Below the pieces are notes generated by a model that saw nothing but the letters and a program-made list of their open reading frames with translations, was not told where the DNA came from and made no database searches. Below, in pieces: positions 12,004 through 20,485 of a stretch of 64,000 bases of DNA. The position numbers and the translations under genes were made by a program. This stretch comes from Hyalangium ruber. GTDB taxonomy: Bacteria > Myxococcota > Myxococcia > Myxococcales > Myxococcaceae. How positions within the stretch are numbered: position 1 is the stretch's first letter; each line of letters starts with the position of its first letter. The stretch covers positions 682,001 through 746,000 of the forward strand of contig NZ_JAXIVS010000002.1 in NCBI RefSeq assembly GCF_034259325.1, written 5' to 3'.

Positions 12004-12271
12004 AGGCTTCCCCCGTGTGGCGAAGATTCGTTCCGGACTCGTCCCCAGGTCCGTCCCTCTGTGGGGCTCTTCACGTCCCGTACCGACACCCGAAAACCCC
12101 GAGTTGTCCGCGAGACGCCACACGGCGGGTCCTCTGCTGGACACCCAGGGCTGGGGGAAGCCCTCGGTGGGAAGCCCGGCCTCCCAGGGTGTGTAAACAG
12201 TTGCCCACCTTGGGTACGCCCAGTGCGTTCTTGTAGTTGTGAAACCGGGCAGGACCTTTAGAGTCGGTCCC

Positions 12272-12958
12272 ATGAAAGTGCCCGAGACGGATGAGGACTT
12301 CGTCCAGTGGTACGAGGACTGCTGGGCCGACCGTGACGAGGTGGAGTACCCGAAGCTCTTCGGGGCAATCAGTGAGGAGGTCTACACGCTGGAACAGACG
12401 GGCGCGCTGCAGGCGTGGCTCGAGAGTGACCTGGCGCAGGTGCAGGAGCTGGATCCGAACTGGGATCCGATGGGTGTTCGGGTGGCGCCGCCCAGTGAGC
12501 AGTTCCCCTATTGGTCGTACGTGACGAGTGGCCTGTCCAACCCGTTCACGGTGGCGCCGGGCGCGGAGGTAGATGAGAACGCGCCCAGCGGCATCGGCTA
12601 CGAGATGGTCATCCACACGCCCGAGGAGGCGCAGTGGCCGGTGCTCCGGCTGCTGGACATGATGGCCTACAACCTGGTGTGCCTGCGGGCTTTCGCGATG
12701 GGGCACCGCTACCCGGTGGAGGGCTCGCTCACGGGCGGCGAGTCGAAGCTCAACGGCTTCGTCTTCGTGAGGGACCCGTCGCGGCCGGCGGAGTTCACCC
12801 TGCCCTCGGGCAAGGTGCAGTTGCTCACGCTGGTGGGGGCGACGCGCAACGAGATGGCCTTCAGCCGCTCCAATGGCATGGAAAAGCTGATGGCCAAAAT
12901 CGTCGAGGCGGGCTCCGGCTACATCACCCACCCGGACCGCGAAGAGGTGAAGCTGTAG
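12272..12958 (+). CDS. Suppressor of fused (SUFU) domain protein
   Basis: A 228-residue soluble protein. The middle and C-terminal parts follow the bacterial SUFU domain: FPYWSYVTSGLSNPF, YEMVIHTPEEAQWPVLRLLDMMAYNL, then LTLVGATRNEMAF near the C-terminus. In bacteria SUFU proteins are often linked to polymorphic toxin immunity, but no toxin gene is adjacent here. ATG 12272 is preferred over a GTG at 12239. A strong hairpin lies just after the stop codon. Confidence 0.8.
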   Translation: MKVPETDEDFVQWYEDCWADRDEVEYPKLFGAISEEVYTLEQTGALQAWLESDLAQVQELDPNWDPMGVRVAPPSEQFPYWSYVTSGLSNPFTVAPGAEVDENAPSGIGYEMVIHTPEEAQWPVLRLLDMMAYNLVCLRAFAMGHRYPVEGSLTGGESKLNGFVFVRDPSRPAEFTLPSGKVQLLTLVGATRNEMAFSRSNGMEKLMAKIVEAGSGYITHPDREEVKL

Positions 12959-16674: not shown

Positions 16675-17964
16675 TTGAATTACCAGGGTGTGACAGGGTT
16701 GCGCGGGGCGGCACCGCGTCTGGCGATGGCGGCGGCCTTCATGACCGCCTTGCTGGACTTGCTGGGCGCCTCTCTGGTGCTGCCCATCCTGGCTCCGCTG
16801 CTGCTGCGCGAGTCGGGGGGGATGTTCGCACCCGGCACTCCCGAGACGACCCGCGCGTGGGTGCTGGGGCTCCTGATGGGGGCCTTTCCGCTGGCGCAGT
16901 TCCTGGGCGCTCCCATGATGGGAGCGCTCTCGGACCGGACCGGACGGCGGCGGGTGCTGCGCGTGACGGTGCTGGTGGCGACCCTGGGCTACGTGCTCTG
17001 CGGGCTGGCGGTGCGCTGGGGCAACGTGCCGCTCCTGCTCGGCGGGCGGCTCGTCGCGGGCCTCATGGGCGGCAACATCGCCATCGTCCAGGCGCTCGTC
17101 GCGGACCTCAGCGCTCCCGAGGAGCGGGCACGGCACTTCGGGTTGATCAGCGCCGCGGGCGGCCTTGGCTTCATCATCGGGCCCGTGCTGGGAGGGTGGC
17201 TGGCGGATGCCTCCCTCGGGCCGTGGTTCGACTTCGCCATGCCCTTCTGGGGCGCGGCGGCGCTGATGGCGCTCAACCTCGCCCTGGTGTGGTTCGGCGT
17301 GCCGGAGACGCTGACGCGGCCGGAAGGCTCGGTGGCCCGGGGGCTCGGCGCCACGCTGTCCGGGCTTCGGGGCTCGCTGTCCTCGCCCCGGGTCCGCGCG
17401 CTGCTCGCGGTGGTGGGGGTGATGACGCTGGGCTGGCCCATCTACGTGCAGTTCTTTCCCGTCTACCTCATCCAGCGCTTCGGAGCGGACCCTCGGCAGA
17501 TCGGCCAGCTCTTCGCCTACGTCGGCGTGTGGATGGTGCTCACGCAGCTGGTGATTCTGCGCTGGGCGAGCCGCCGCTGGACCAGCCGCGCCCTGTTCCC
17601 GTGGTGCCTGCTGGGCCTGGCGCTCATCTACCCGCTGCTGCTGTGGCCCCAGCGCATGGAGTTGCTGCTGCTGCTGCTGCCCTTCCAGGTGGTGTTCGAG
17701 GGGCTGGCGTGGCCGAGCGCCATCGCCCTGGCCTCGCAGGCGGCGGGCACCTCGGCTCAGGGGCGAGTGCTGGGCGCCATGGCCAGCGTGCGCTCCCTGG
17801 GCATGGCGGTGGCTCCCGTGGTGTCGGGCTTCATCGTCCGCTTCCACCCGGCGCTGCCCACGCTGTTCGCCAGCGCGGTGATGTTCCTGGCCTTCCTGGG
17901 AGCCGTCCGGGTGCTGGGCGCGACGGCGGAGACACGCATGACGGAAGGAAGGGACGAAGCATGA
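16675..17964 (+). CDS. MFS transporter (drug/metabolite exporter type)
   Basis: About 429 residues with 12 predicted membrane segments. MFS signatures are clear: GAPMMGALSDRTGRRRVLR between TM2 and TM3, GGRLVAGLMGGNIAI, and motif-C-like ISAAGGLGFIIGPVLGGWLAD in TM5, typical of exporters of the TetA/Bcr class. The start is uncertain: TTG 16675 gives the full frame, with GTG 16690 and ATG 16726 as alternatives. The stop overlaps the next gene by ATGA, placing this transporter first in a four-gene coupled operon (Dcd, Dcd-like, GT4). Substrate unknown. Confidence 0.88.
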   Translation: MNYQGVTGLRGAAPRLAMAAAFMTALLDLLGASLVLPILAPLLLRESGGMFAPGTPETTRAWVLGLLMGAFPLAQFLGAPMMGALSDRTGRRRVLRVTVLVATLGYVLCGLAVRWGNVPLLLGGRLVAGLMGGNIAIVQALVADLSAPEERARHFGLISAAGGLGFIIGPVLGGWLADASLGPWFDFAMPFWGAAALMALNLALVWFGVPETLTRPEGSVARGLGATLSGLRGSLSSPRVRALLAVVGVMTLGWPIYVQFFPVYLIQRFGADPRQIGQLFAYVGVWMVLTQLVILRWASRRWTSRALFPWCLLGLALIYPLLLWPQRMELLLLLLPFQVVFEGLAWPSAIALASQAAGTSAQGRVLGAMASVRSLGMAVAPVVSGFIVRFHPALPTLFASAVMFLAFLGAVRVLGATAETRMTEGRDEA

Positions 17965-18509
17965 TCCTCACGGGTCCAGAGATTGCCCGAGCGGTGGGCG
18001 AAGGGCGGATCGACCTCGAGCCCTTCGAGCCCGACCGGCTCAACCCCAACAGCTACAACTACCGGCTCGGCCCCGAGCTGGTGGAGATCCACAACGACGT
18101 CATCGACCTGCGCGGCGAGCAGCACACGGTGCGCACGCGAATCCCTCCCGAGGGCTTCCTGCTCCAGCCCCGGCGCATCTACCTGGGCACGACGCTGGAG
18201 GTCATCGGCAGCGACACCTATGTGCCCAGCCTCATCGGCCGCTCGTCGTTGGGGCGACTGGGGCTGTTCCTGCAGATCACCGCCGACCTCGGCCACCTGG
18301 GCACGCGGCACAGCTGGACGCTGGAGCTCAAGGTGGTGCAGCCGCTCATCGTCTACGCGGGCATGCGCATCGGGCAGGTGTCCTTCTGGAAGCCCGAGGG
18401 GCTCGAGCTGCTCGAGGGCGCCCGCTACCTCCATCAGGCCCACAGCTACGCGCGCTTCTCCGGGCCGCAGACCAGCATGTTCCACAAGCTCCTGGACGAA
18501 CAGCCATGA
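17961..18509 (+). CDS. dcd: dCTP deaminase family protein
   Basis: A 182-residue trimeric dUTPase-fold protein. It shows MILTGPEIARAVGEGRI, LNPNSYNYRLG, the IGRSSLGRLGLF nucleotide-binding motif and HSWTLELKVVQPLIVYAGMRIGQVSFW; the Glu of TLEL aligns with the catalytic Glu138 of E. coli Dcd. Active dCTP deaminase would convert dCTP to dUTP. It overlaps the MFS gene by four bases and its paralogue by four bases, unlike housekeeping dcd genes, which suggests a role in a dedicated pathway. Activity is inferred from residue retention only. Confidence 0.85.
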   Translation: MILTGPEIARAVGEGRIDLEPFEPDRLNPNSYNYRLGPELVEIHNDVIDLRGEQHTVRTRIPPEGFLLQPRRIYLGTTLEVIGSDTYVPSLIGRSSLGRLGLFLQITADLGHLGTRHSWTLELKVVQPLIVYAGMRIGQVSFWKPEGLELLEGARYLHQAHSYARFSGPQTSMFHKLLDEQP

Positions 18510-19036
18510 TCCTCACCGGACCGAAGATTCAGCAGGAGGTGCGGGCAGGCAACATCCGCATCTCTCCTTTCAGCGAGGAGCAGATCAACCCCAACTCGTA
18601 TGACCTGCGGCTGGGGAACACGATCAAGGTCTACAAGGAGCACCTCCTCGACTCGCGCAAGAGCAACGAGACGATGACGCTGCACCTCCCTCCCGAGGGC
18701 CTGGAGCTGCGACCGGACACGCTCTACCTGGGCCACACGGCGGAGGAGGTCGGCAGCGACCGGTTCGTGCCCGTACTGCGGGGCAAGTCCTCCACCGGGC
18801 GCATCGGCCTGTTCGTCCACATCACGGCGGACCTCATCGACATCGGCTCGCACGGGCAGTTCACGCTGATGCTCCACGCGGTGCAGCCGGTGCGCGTCTA
18901 TCCGAACATGCGCATCGGGCAGGTGACGTTCTGGACCGTGCTCGGCGACATCACGCTCTACCAGGGCAAGTACCAGGGCAGCCGGGGGCCTCGGGCCTCG
19001 GAGGTCTACCGGGACTTCGACCGGGAGACGCCATGA
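18506..19036 (+). CDS. dCTP deaminase-like paralogue lacking the catalytic Glu
   Basis: A 176-residue paralogue of the preceding gene, sharing MILTGPKIQQEV, INPNSYDLRLG, GKSSTGRIGLFVHITADL and VYPNMRIGQVTFW. The position of the catalytic Glu (TLEL in the neighbour) is Met here: QFTLMLHAVQP, codon ATG. Loss of this Glu should abolish deamination by the known mechanism while the fold and nucleotide-binding SS-GR motif persist. It may be a regulatory subunit, a hetero-oligomer partner or an enzyme with another nucleotide chemistry. Overlaps both neighbours by ATGA. Confidence 0.8.
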   Translation: MILTGPKIQQEVRAGNIRISPFSEEQINPNSYDLRLGNTIKVYKEHLLDSRKSNETMTLHLPPEGLELRPDTLYLGHTAEEVGSDRFVPVLRGKSSTGRIGLFVHITADLIDIGSHGQFTLMLHAVQPVRVYPNMRIGQVTFWTVLGDITLYQGKYQGSRGPRASEVYRDFDRETP

Positions 19037-20169
19037 GGATCCTCACCGGCATCGACATTCCGTTCACGCCCTTCGGGGGCAGCCCCATCCTCTGCGACGA
19101 CTGGTACAGCCAGCCGCCGCCCGGCGTGCAGGTGCGCTTCCTGACCCTGGCGCCTCCGGAAGGGACCGGCCGGTGGTGGGCGATGGAGGACGTGCATTTC
19201 CTGGAGGCGCGGAAGGCGCGCACGCAGGAGGGGTTCGACGCGTACGTCCAGCAGCTCCGGCGAGAGGTGGCCCGCCACGTGGCCGACTTCCGCCCCACGC
19301 TCATCCACTGCCAACACCTCAACTTCGGCCTGTCGCGCGCCTTCGCGGAGGAGGCTCCGGGCATCGCCAAGGTGGGCATCTGCCATGGCACCGACGTGCA
19401 GAGCGCGACGCAGTCCGGGTTCTTCCTGGCCAACTTGCGCGCCATTCGCGCGGGCATGAACGCGCTGCTCTTCCCGGCTCGGCGCATGGCGGACGACTAC
19501 TTCGCCGTCGATCCCTGTGAGCTCGAGCACACGGTGCTCCCTCATGGAATTCCGGATCGGTTCTATGCGCCTCGACCCGAGGGGCAGCGGGCTCCCTCGT
19601 TGCGCGTGCTGTATGCCGGACGGCTGACGCCGTGGAAGGGCGCGGACATCGCCGTGTCCGCGATGCGCTACCTGCCCGAGGACGTGTCCCTCTCAGTCGT
19701 GGGAGGCGAGGATTCGCCCGGCTACCTGGACCAACTCCGCGCCGAGGTGACCACGCATGGGCTGGAGGCCCGCGTCCACTTCGAGGGACACCTGCCCCGC
19801 GAGCGGCTCGTGGAGCGCTTCTCCGACTTCGACGTCTGCGTCTTCCCGTCGCGGCGCCTGGAGGCGTTCTCCCTGACCACCATCGAGGCGCAGGCCCGGG
19901 GGCTCGTGGTGGTGTACGCCGGCGCGGGCGGAGGGATCGTCGACGCGGTGGGCGAGTCGGGCCTGCAGGTCCGAGAGAACACGCCCGAGGTGCTGGCCTC
20001 CTCGCTCGCCAGGCTGCGTGCCGAGCCGGCGCTGCTGGAGCACTACCGCGCTCGGGGCTATCGCAACGCGGAGCAGTACCGGATGTCCGTCATCCGTCCG
20101 CGCTTCTTCGCGCTCGCTCGGGAGCACGCTCTACGTTCCCGGGCGAACGGCCCCCCTCCTCTGGCATGA
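19033..20169 (+). CDS. Glycosyltransferase family 4 protein
   Basis: A 378-residue GT-B glycosyltransferase. The N-terminal domain has RPTLIHCQHLNFGLSRAFAEE and GICHGTDVQS; the C-terminal donor domain has LRVLYAGRLTPWKGADIAV, VGGEDSPGYLDQLR, HFEGHLPRERLVERFSDFDVCVFPSR and the EX7E motif EAFSLTTIEAQA. This is the typical layout of retaining GT4 enzymes using nucleotide-sugar donors. It is last in the MFS-Dcd-Dcd'-GT4 chain with a four-base overlap, so it may glycosylate the product handled by those proteins; acceptor unknown. Confidence 0.88.
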   Translation: MRILTGIDIPFTPFGGSPILCDDWYSQPPPGVQVRFLTLAPPEGTGRWWAMEDVHFLEARKARTQEGFDAYVQQLRREVARHVADFRPTLIHCQHLNFGLSRAFAEEAPGIAKVGICHGTDVQSATQSGFFLANLRAIRAGMNALLFPARRMADDYFAVDPCELEHTVLPHGIPDRFYAPRPEGQRAPSLRVLYAGRLTPWKGADIAVSAMRYLPEDVSLSVVGGEDSPGYLDQLRAEVTTHGLEARVHFEGHLPRERLVERFSDFDVCVFPSRRLEAFSLTTIEAQARGLVVVYAGAGGGIVDAVGESGLQVRENTPEVLASSLARLRAEPALLEHYRARGYRNAEQYRMSVIRPRFFALAREHALRSRANGPPPLA

Positions 20170-20176
20170 TCGATTT

Positions 20177-20485
20177 ATGTGCCGGAACATCAAGCTGCTC
20201 CATCACTTCGAGCCGCCCGCGTCCAAGGAGGAGATCCGTGATTCGGCCCTCCAATATGTCCGGAAGCTGAGCGGGATGCGGGCCCCCTCGCGAGCCAACC
20301 AGGCGGCCTTCGACCGCGCCGTGGACGAAGTCACGGCAACGATCACCCGGCTCTTCGCCTCCCTGGAGTCCCACGGTCCGCCACGGACACGCGAGGCGGA
20401 GAAGCTCAAGGCCATCGACCGCGGACTCAAGCGGGAGGCGCAGGTGCGAGCCCGCGTCCTCCAAAACATGTCCCGCCAGCGTTAG
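20177..20485 (+). CDS. DUF2277 domain protein
   Basis: A 102-residue basic helical protein. The start MCRNIKLLHHFEPPASKEE and the RAPSRANQAAFDRAVDEV segment are characteristic of DUF2277. Function is unknown; members are small soluble proteins found across bacteria. Its ATG at 20177 is seven bases after the GT4 stop codon, so it may be the fifth gene of that operon, but the family is often encoded alone. A hairpin with a T-run follows at 20681. Confidence 0.85.
   Translation: MCRNIKLLHHFEPPASKEEIRDSALQYVRKLSGMRAPSRANQAAFDRAVDEVTATITRLFASLESHGPPRTREAEKLKAIDRGLKREAQVRARVLQNMSRQR

Follow-up and report, generated by a model that had tools for sequence, protein, structure and literature searches.

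The deoxycytidine triphosphate (dCTP) deaminase family is trimeric, with active sites that lie between subunits (PMC4827122). The known DCD and DCD-DUT enzymes are homotrimers in which each chain carries every catalytic element. Here we describe a locus of Hyalangium ruber at which these elements are instead divided over two co-encoded chains. The locus is an operon of four genes, encoding a major facilitator superfamily (MFS) transporter, two proteins of the dCTP deaminase (Dcd) fold that we call Dcd-a and Dcd-b, and a family 4 glycosyltransferase (GT4), and it lies in a stretch of 64,000 nucleotides (contig NZ_JAXIVS010000002.1, positions 682,001 to 746,000), referred to below as the window.

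With the Dcd enzymes of E. coli (1xs1), M. tuberculosis (2qxx), M. jannaschii (1ogh), and B. halodurans (4xjc), the pair has in common the fold, motif II, and the position of the catalytic Glu. The long fused Dcd of rhizobia and agrobacteria (PF06559; A. tumefaciens 2r9q; locus L093 in our collection) resembles the pair in having two Dcd domains that retain the catalytic elements unequally. It differs in being one polypeptide, with motif II in the N-terminal half, the arm in the C-terminal half, and Glu in both, and no GT4/MFS operon was seen in the loci read. The nearest single-chain relatives are single-copy members of the same subfamily (L010, on a Paenibacillus plasmid; L117-L120, from Myxococcota; and L102-L105, on viral contigs), mostly with a WTLE motif. 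Unlike the pair, these have motif II, the Glu, and an arm-like C terminus all in one chain, and they likely represent the state before duplication.

Division of catalytic elements between Dcd-a and Dcd-b

The catalytic Glu was placed, within the segment IVLEFYN, by means of the E. coli sequences 1xs1 (wild type), 2v9x (E138D), and 1xs4 (E138A), which differ precisely at the residue aligned to E122 of Dcd-a and M122 of Dcd-b. The catalytic Glu is present in Dcd-a only, and the C-terminal arm, KYQGSRGP, is present in Dcd-b only; the Ser and Arg of motif II (Ser111 and Arg115 in E. coli) are S95 and R99 in both proteins. In window coordinates, the features are as follows.

17961..18509, + strand: Dcd-a, Dcd-fold protein of 182 amino acids, Glu kept, C-terminal arm degenerate (PF22769, E-value 2.7e-33)
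18243..18257, + strand: motif II of Dcd-a, S95-S-L-G-R99, equivalent to E. coli S111..R115 (alignment)
18324..18326, + strand: E122 codon of Dcd-a, GAG, equivalent of E. coli catalytic E138 (alignment with 1xs1, 1xs4, and 2v9x)
18506..19036, + strand: Dcd-b, Dcd-fold protein of 176 amino acids, Met in place of Glu, motif II and arm intact (PF22769, E-value 4.2e-40)
18788..18802, + strand: motif II of Dcd-b, S95-S-T-G-R99 (alignment)
18869..18871, + strand: M122 codon of Dcd-b, ATG, at the catalytic Glu position (alignment)
18968..18991, + strand: C-terminal arm of Dcd-b, K155-Y-Q-G-S-R-G-P, equivalent to E. coli K178-Y179..G184 (alignment)

The two proteins are paralogues with 45% identity, and a 79% direct DNA repeat (18318-18390 and 18863-18935) reflects that relationship. 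Both exceed the PF22769 cut-off of 27 bits (115.6 for Dcd-a and 137.8 for Dcd-b). With the TIGR02274 equivalog model, for which the cut-off is 92.8, Dcd-b falls above (111.8 bits) and Dcd-a below (73.6 bits). If the elements are split as we propose, automatic annotation misleads here, since the Glu-less Dcd-b would be given the NCBIfam name "dCTP deaminase" and the Glu-bearing Dcd-a would not. In AlphaFold models, Dcd-b has a predicted local distance difference test score (pLDDT) of 93.6 and a template modeling (TM) score of 0.90 to both 4xjc and M. tuberculosis DCD-DUT. Dcd-a has a pLDDT of 86, with 50 to 69 in the arm, and a TM score of 0.72 to M. tuberculosis DCD-DUT (Foldseek probability 1.00 for both proteins). 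We also considered the two Dcd proteins as consecutive enzymes acting in series, and rejected this because the catalytic Glu is missing from Dcd-b.

Complementary loss in 84 tandem pairs

Related loci were gathered from plasmids and from a scan of genome contigs, and all Dcd-like open reading frames (ORFs) were aligned, yielding 84 complete pairs, drawn from many phyla. In every one of them, one partner and only one carries the catalytic Glu. In the b subunits, this residue is replaced by Gln (72 pairs), Met (11), or His (1). Mutants crystallized for this family include E138A, E138D, and M. jannaschii E145A and E145Q; the E. coli E138A and E138Q proteins are reportedly inactive, and the E. coli active site is said to be built from two subunits.

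The other elements follow the opposite pattern. Motif II Ser and Arg are kept in every b subunit, whereas one or both are changed in 13 of the 84 a subunits, although the window Dcd-a is intact in this respect. The loss is severe in four a subunits, which have HS, RS, AS, and AY at these positions (L012, L090, L077, and L091). Similarly, the K/R-Y of the arm is kept in all 84 b subunits, and the full K-Y..G is intact in 65 b subunits versus 2 a subunits. Only one combination is complete in all 84 pairs: the Glu taken from a, and motif II and the arm taken from b. These pairs are kin sequences, not 84 independent events; what counts as independent evidence is that motif II has been lost repeatedly, and in a subunits only.

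In a tree of these sequences, a and b fall into two distinct clades, except for the early-branching L012/L090 pair, and the single-copy homologue of the Paenibacillus plasmid, in which all elements are present, is sister to a/b. Given this topology, the a/b split appears to be old and to derive from a single duplication.

Complementary loss of this kind implies an obligate heteromer, and we think it very probable, judging from sequence, that Dcd-a and Dcd-b form one, with a composite active site. The pattern is what one would expect of such a heteromer if its sites lay between subunits, where those of the family are found (PMC4827122). Dcd-a and Dcd-b would then be subunits of one metal-independent cytosine-nucleotide deaminase of the DCD/DCD-DUT family. 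A catalytic site would be formed at each a/b interface, with Dcd-a supplying the general-base Glu (E122) and Dcd-b the Ser/Arg motif of the triphosphate site, together with the arm closing over the nucleotide. The heteromer would act on dCTP, or on a cytosine nucleotide akin to it, and turn it into the uracil nucleotide. If so, the pair offers a clean natural case in which a homo-oligomer has become an obligate hetero-oligomer with shared active sites.

Conservation of the operon and a possible pathway

All four genes are on the + strand, in the order MFS, Dcd-a, Dcd-b, GT4. An original prediction, made from the letters of the window, had read successive 4-base ATGA overlaps at 17961, 18506, and 19033, and the ORF coordinates confirm them; its assignment of the products agrees with Pfam matches to MFS_1, PF22769 (twice), and PF00534. 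The two outer genes are as follows.

16675..17964, + strand: MFS transporter, DHA/TetA-NorA-like, 429 amino acids, TTG start (PF07690, MFS_1, E-value 8.1e-47)
19033..20169, + strand: GT4 glycosyltransferase, 378 amino acids (PF00534, glycosyltransferase group 1, E-value 6.9e-22)

The four genes, with their order and their ATGA overlaps, recur in G150, a genome from a different genus within the family, an agreement beyond chance. Amino acid identities between the two operons are 77% for MFS, 83% for Dcd-a, 86% for Dcd-b, and 75% for GT4. The corresponding ratios of nonsynonymous to synonymous substitution rates are 0.21, 0.13, 0.16, and 0.19, which show purifying selection; the value for Dcd-b places the Glu-less protein under strong constraint. 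G150 also has a decayed second copy of the operon (L116:4179-5629), in which fragments of MFS and Dcd-a adjoin and Dcd-b is gone. The GT4 of that copy is full length and 76% identical to the window GT4, hinting that it has been kept for its own sake.

Of 195 Myxococcota genomes searched for a close Dcd pair, two had one, and of 193 searched for the GT4, again two did; both times these were the window genome and G150. Four other Myxococcota genomes have single-copy Dcd homologues. Outside the phylum, the order Dcd-a/Dcd-b/GT4 recurs in a Woesebacterium, a WWE3 bacterium, and a Saccharibacterium (L013-L015), with GT4s of the same family as that of the window and 48 to 51% identical to it, and more distantly in actinomycetes (31 to 37%). 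This GT4 is rare in Patescibacteria (2 of 380 genomes). Pair and GT4 adjoin directly in L013-L015, L012, and L047 and are separated by one or two genes in L008, L025, and L037. The MFS partner is less fixed: other MFS genes accompany the pair in Serratia/Erwinia and in Streptomyces, and MFS genes are also found by it in L065/L073/L088 and L090. Thus, the order is not unique to the window genome, with four genes conserved in G150 and Dcd-Dcd'-GT4 in Patescibacteria and actinomycetes, and the view that this is not a housekeeping arrangement is supported.

One can envision that the GT4 would add a sugar to the uracil nucleoside or nucleotide, or to a derivative, and that the MFS protein would export the glycosylated product. 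A pathway of modification, glycosylation, and export had been proposed from the first reading of the window. It is still the best-fitting reading, and the gene order behind it is conserved; its substrate, product, nucleoside glycosylation, and export, like the physical heteromer itself, are things that we infer. That the window operon yields a glycosylated, exported nucleoside or nucleotide we put at a little under an even chance, and the combination of a heteromeric deaminase with GT4 glycosylation and MFS export at about even, a judgment weighted toward the heteromer. More doubtful is a further-reaching view: that the pair is the first heteromeric split-site enzyme of the dCTP deaminase family, arose by one old duplication, has spread modularly among bacteria and archaea, Patescibacteria and DPANN included, and founds a class of pyrimidine-nucleotide natural products, glycosylated or aminoacylated, that has yet to be described. 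The open-access literature searched (nucleoside/biosynthetic cluster, LD-carboxypeptidase plus tRNA synthetase, and heteromer contexts) contained no account of such a Dcd pair, and papers on Dcd structure yielded background on the family only. If the heteromer and its pathway are as proposed above, the pair would serve as a genomic hook to a family of clusters for small nucleotide-derived metabolites, to be sought among streptomycetes, enterobacteria, candidate phyla, and myxobacteria.

Several points weigh against this interpretation. The AlphaFold models of Dcd-a and Dcd-b are of single chains, not complexes. The fused rhizobial Dcd of L093 divides the elements otherwise, with motif II in one half and Glu plus arm in the other, a division that would fit a site to which one chain gives both arm and Glu. 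Were that to hold for the pair, the site would use the altered arm of Dcd-a, and the conclusion of a composite Glu/motif II site would stand. The enzyme might act on a cytosine nucleotide other than dCTP, or on a modified one. Neighboring genes differ between lineages, so that no single pathway is fixed. Finally, the minimal genomes G060, G061, and G067 hold the pair only, where it may serve the supply of dTMP.

Alternative explanations

That last observation leads to the possibility that the pair is simply the dCTP deaminase of the organism, providing dUMP for thymidylate, with incidental neighbors. The window genome has Dut but no other Dcd, as would be expected in that case, and in rumen alphaproteobacteria and Holosporaceae the pair sits by lnt, outside any biosynthetic cluster, again in line with a housekeeping role. 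Such a role is hard to reconcile with the absence of a close pair from nearly all Myxococcota, among which a few have single-copy homologues, and it leaves the tight linkage of pair and GT4 unexplained. Among 24 pair-bearing genomes checked, at least 10 contain an ordinary Dcd as well, which argues for more than a housekeeping part for the pair, and we consider this explanation unlikely. Improbable for other reasons is an arrangement with no mixed site, in which Dcd-a would be an active homotrimer and Dcd-b a Glu-less homotrimer binding deoxynucleotides as a regulator or carrier. The window proteins themselves would allow it, since Dcd-a keeps both Glu and motif II and the binding site of Dcd-b is complete apart from the Glu. 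Several a subunits lack motif II, however, and should therefore be inactive alone; almost all lack a normal arm; and a and b are strictly co-inherited.

Nucleotide depletion as a defense, with the deaminase draining dCTP upon phage infection, had been the other possibility raised originally. Depletion of dCTP by this family is chemically plausible, the distribution of the pair is sporadic and sometimes plasmid-borne, and in six loci (L020, L027, L048, L055, L056, and L057) an HD+TIR protein, often with a P-loop kinase-like protein, lies beside the pair. Yet PADLOC gave no match for any of the four operon proteins or for the HD-TIR protein. The operon contains no toxin, sensor, or nuclease, and neither MFS exporters nor GT4s are known as components of depletion systems. 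Matches on viral contigs were few, and those read were of the single-copy type. Defense thus seems highly improbable for the window operon. Quite unlikely, too, is that the operon is a reduced, glycosylated version of a pathway for a peptidyl- or aminoacyl-nucleotide antibiotic (microcin C-like or phosphoramidate). The idea draws on genes near the pair in relatives: alanyl-tRNA synthetase (AlaRS)-like proteins at about 20 loci, duplicate prolyl-tRNA synthetases (ProRS), Lys/Asp-tRNA synthetase-like proteins, S66 LD-carboxypeptidases (MccF family), HIT proteins, and ATP-grasp ligases. HIT hydrolases have been reported to confer microcin C resistance (PMC7157772). Not one of the genes just listed lies in or adjoins the window operon, and synthetase-like, S66, and HIT genes are absent from its neighborhood.

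Transporter, glycosyltransferase, and flanking sequence

Translation of the MFS gene may in fact begin as many as 17 codons beyond the TTG, as the G150 homologue aligns from residue 14 onward only. NorA is the best solved relative (4e-19), and the score against the tetracycline efflux TetA-D equivalog, 150.6 bits, is below the cut-off of 475. The GT4 exceeds its domain cut-offs (PF00534, 78.2 bits against 26.4; PF13692, 75.4 bits against 27) and fell in none of the characterized subfamilies tested (MshA, EpsE, GlgA, and others), the best being MshA with 64 bits against 462.5. Among solved structures, its best matches include MshA and enzymes like sucrose-phosphate synthase. With GT4s acting on small metabolites (MshA, BshA, SenB, and tetrahydrobiopterin glucosyltransferase) it has in common the GT4 fold and donor-site domain, but it is far under every equivalog cut-off for them.

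A DUF2277 gene (20177-20485) begins 8 bp downstream of the GT4 gene; it has no match at the G150 locus and is therefore probably outside the operon unit. The GC content of the operon, overall and at third codon positions, resembles that of its neighbors and of the window, with no compositional sign of recent transfer. Scans for sigma-70 promoters and terminators gave nothing above chance. In a search for empty sites by flanking synteny, the AraC neighbor was kept in G007 and G014, never together with the left flank, and the insertion boundaries were not located. A SUFU (suppressor-of-fused) domain protein is encoded in the neighborhood, at 12239-12958.

Neighborhoods of the pair in other lineages

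As in small biosynthetic clusters, the genes around the pair mostly suit tailoring, transfer, and export, with some that may give self-protection, and this variety (GT4, synthetase-like, methyltransferase, S66, HIT, transporters) favors a small-molecule (nucleoside) pathway over housekeeping or phage defense, although an HD-TIR protein adjoins the pair in some relatives. In Patescibacteria, DPANN, and alphaproteobacteria, the pair is surrounded by AlaRS-like, methyltransferase, and S66 peptidase genes, in loci that resemble parts of peptide-nucleotide antibiotic clusters. Proteins like the AlaRS catalytic domain and/or an S66 LD-carboxypeptidase, with a methyltransferase, occur by the pair in L016, L034, L042, L053, L054, L058, L067, L068, L069, L080, L089, and L092.

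In Streptomyces, the order is metallophosphoesterase-TauD-pair-WbqC-GT4-ProRS-MurG-HIT. Streptomycete and Kitasatospora loci (L008, L022, L025, L028, L030, L033, L037, and L060) have a second ProRS-like protein, a MurG-like GT28, HIT, TauD, WbqC, and a metallophosphoesterase, making this cluster a candidate nucleoside antibiotic locus with a self-resistance aminoacyl-tRNA synthetase. Serratia and Erwinia have methyltransferase-pair-AlaRS-like-phosphoesterase-two ATP-grasp-MFS. Actinomycetes have P-loop kinase-like-pair-methyltransferase-Gfo/Idh-glycosyltransferase, and some have HD-TIR-P-loop kinase-like-pair.

The HD-TIR protein, of about 660 amino acids, adjoins the pair in the six loci listed above; its TIR domain was identified by Pfam, and its HD-like N-terminal part, without a Pfam match, was read by eye. 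These loci often add a P-loop kinase-like protein of about 190 amino acids without a Pfam match, and they look like an undescribed defense-type cluster.

In the rumen alphaproteobacteria and Holosporaceae, the pair is directly upstream of lnt, for apolipoprotein N-acyltransferase (L059, L061, L063, L064, L066, L071, L077, L081, and L083). A third, more distant Glu-bearing Dcd homologue comes right after the pair in L032, L046, L055, L057, and L072, and L032, L055, and L072 have an AIR-synthase-like gene upstream. In Saccharibacteria and another bacterium, a protein of about 600 amino acids with almost no Pfam match is encoded immediately upstream of the pair (L024:8223-9962, L031:8205-10004, and L039:8172-10004).

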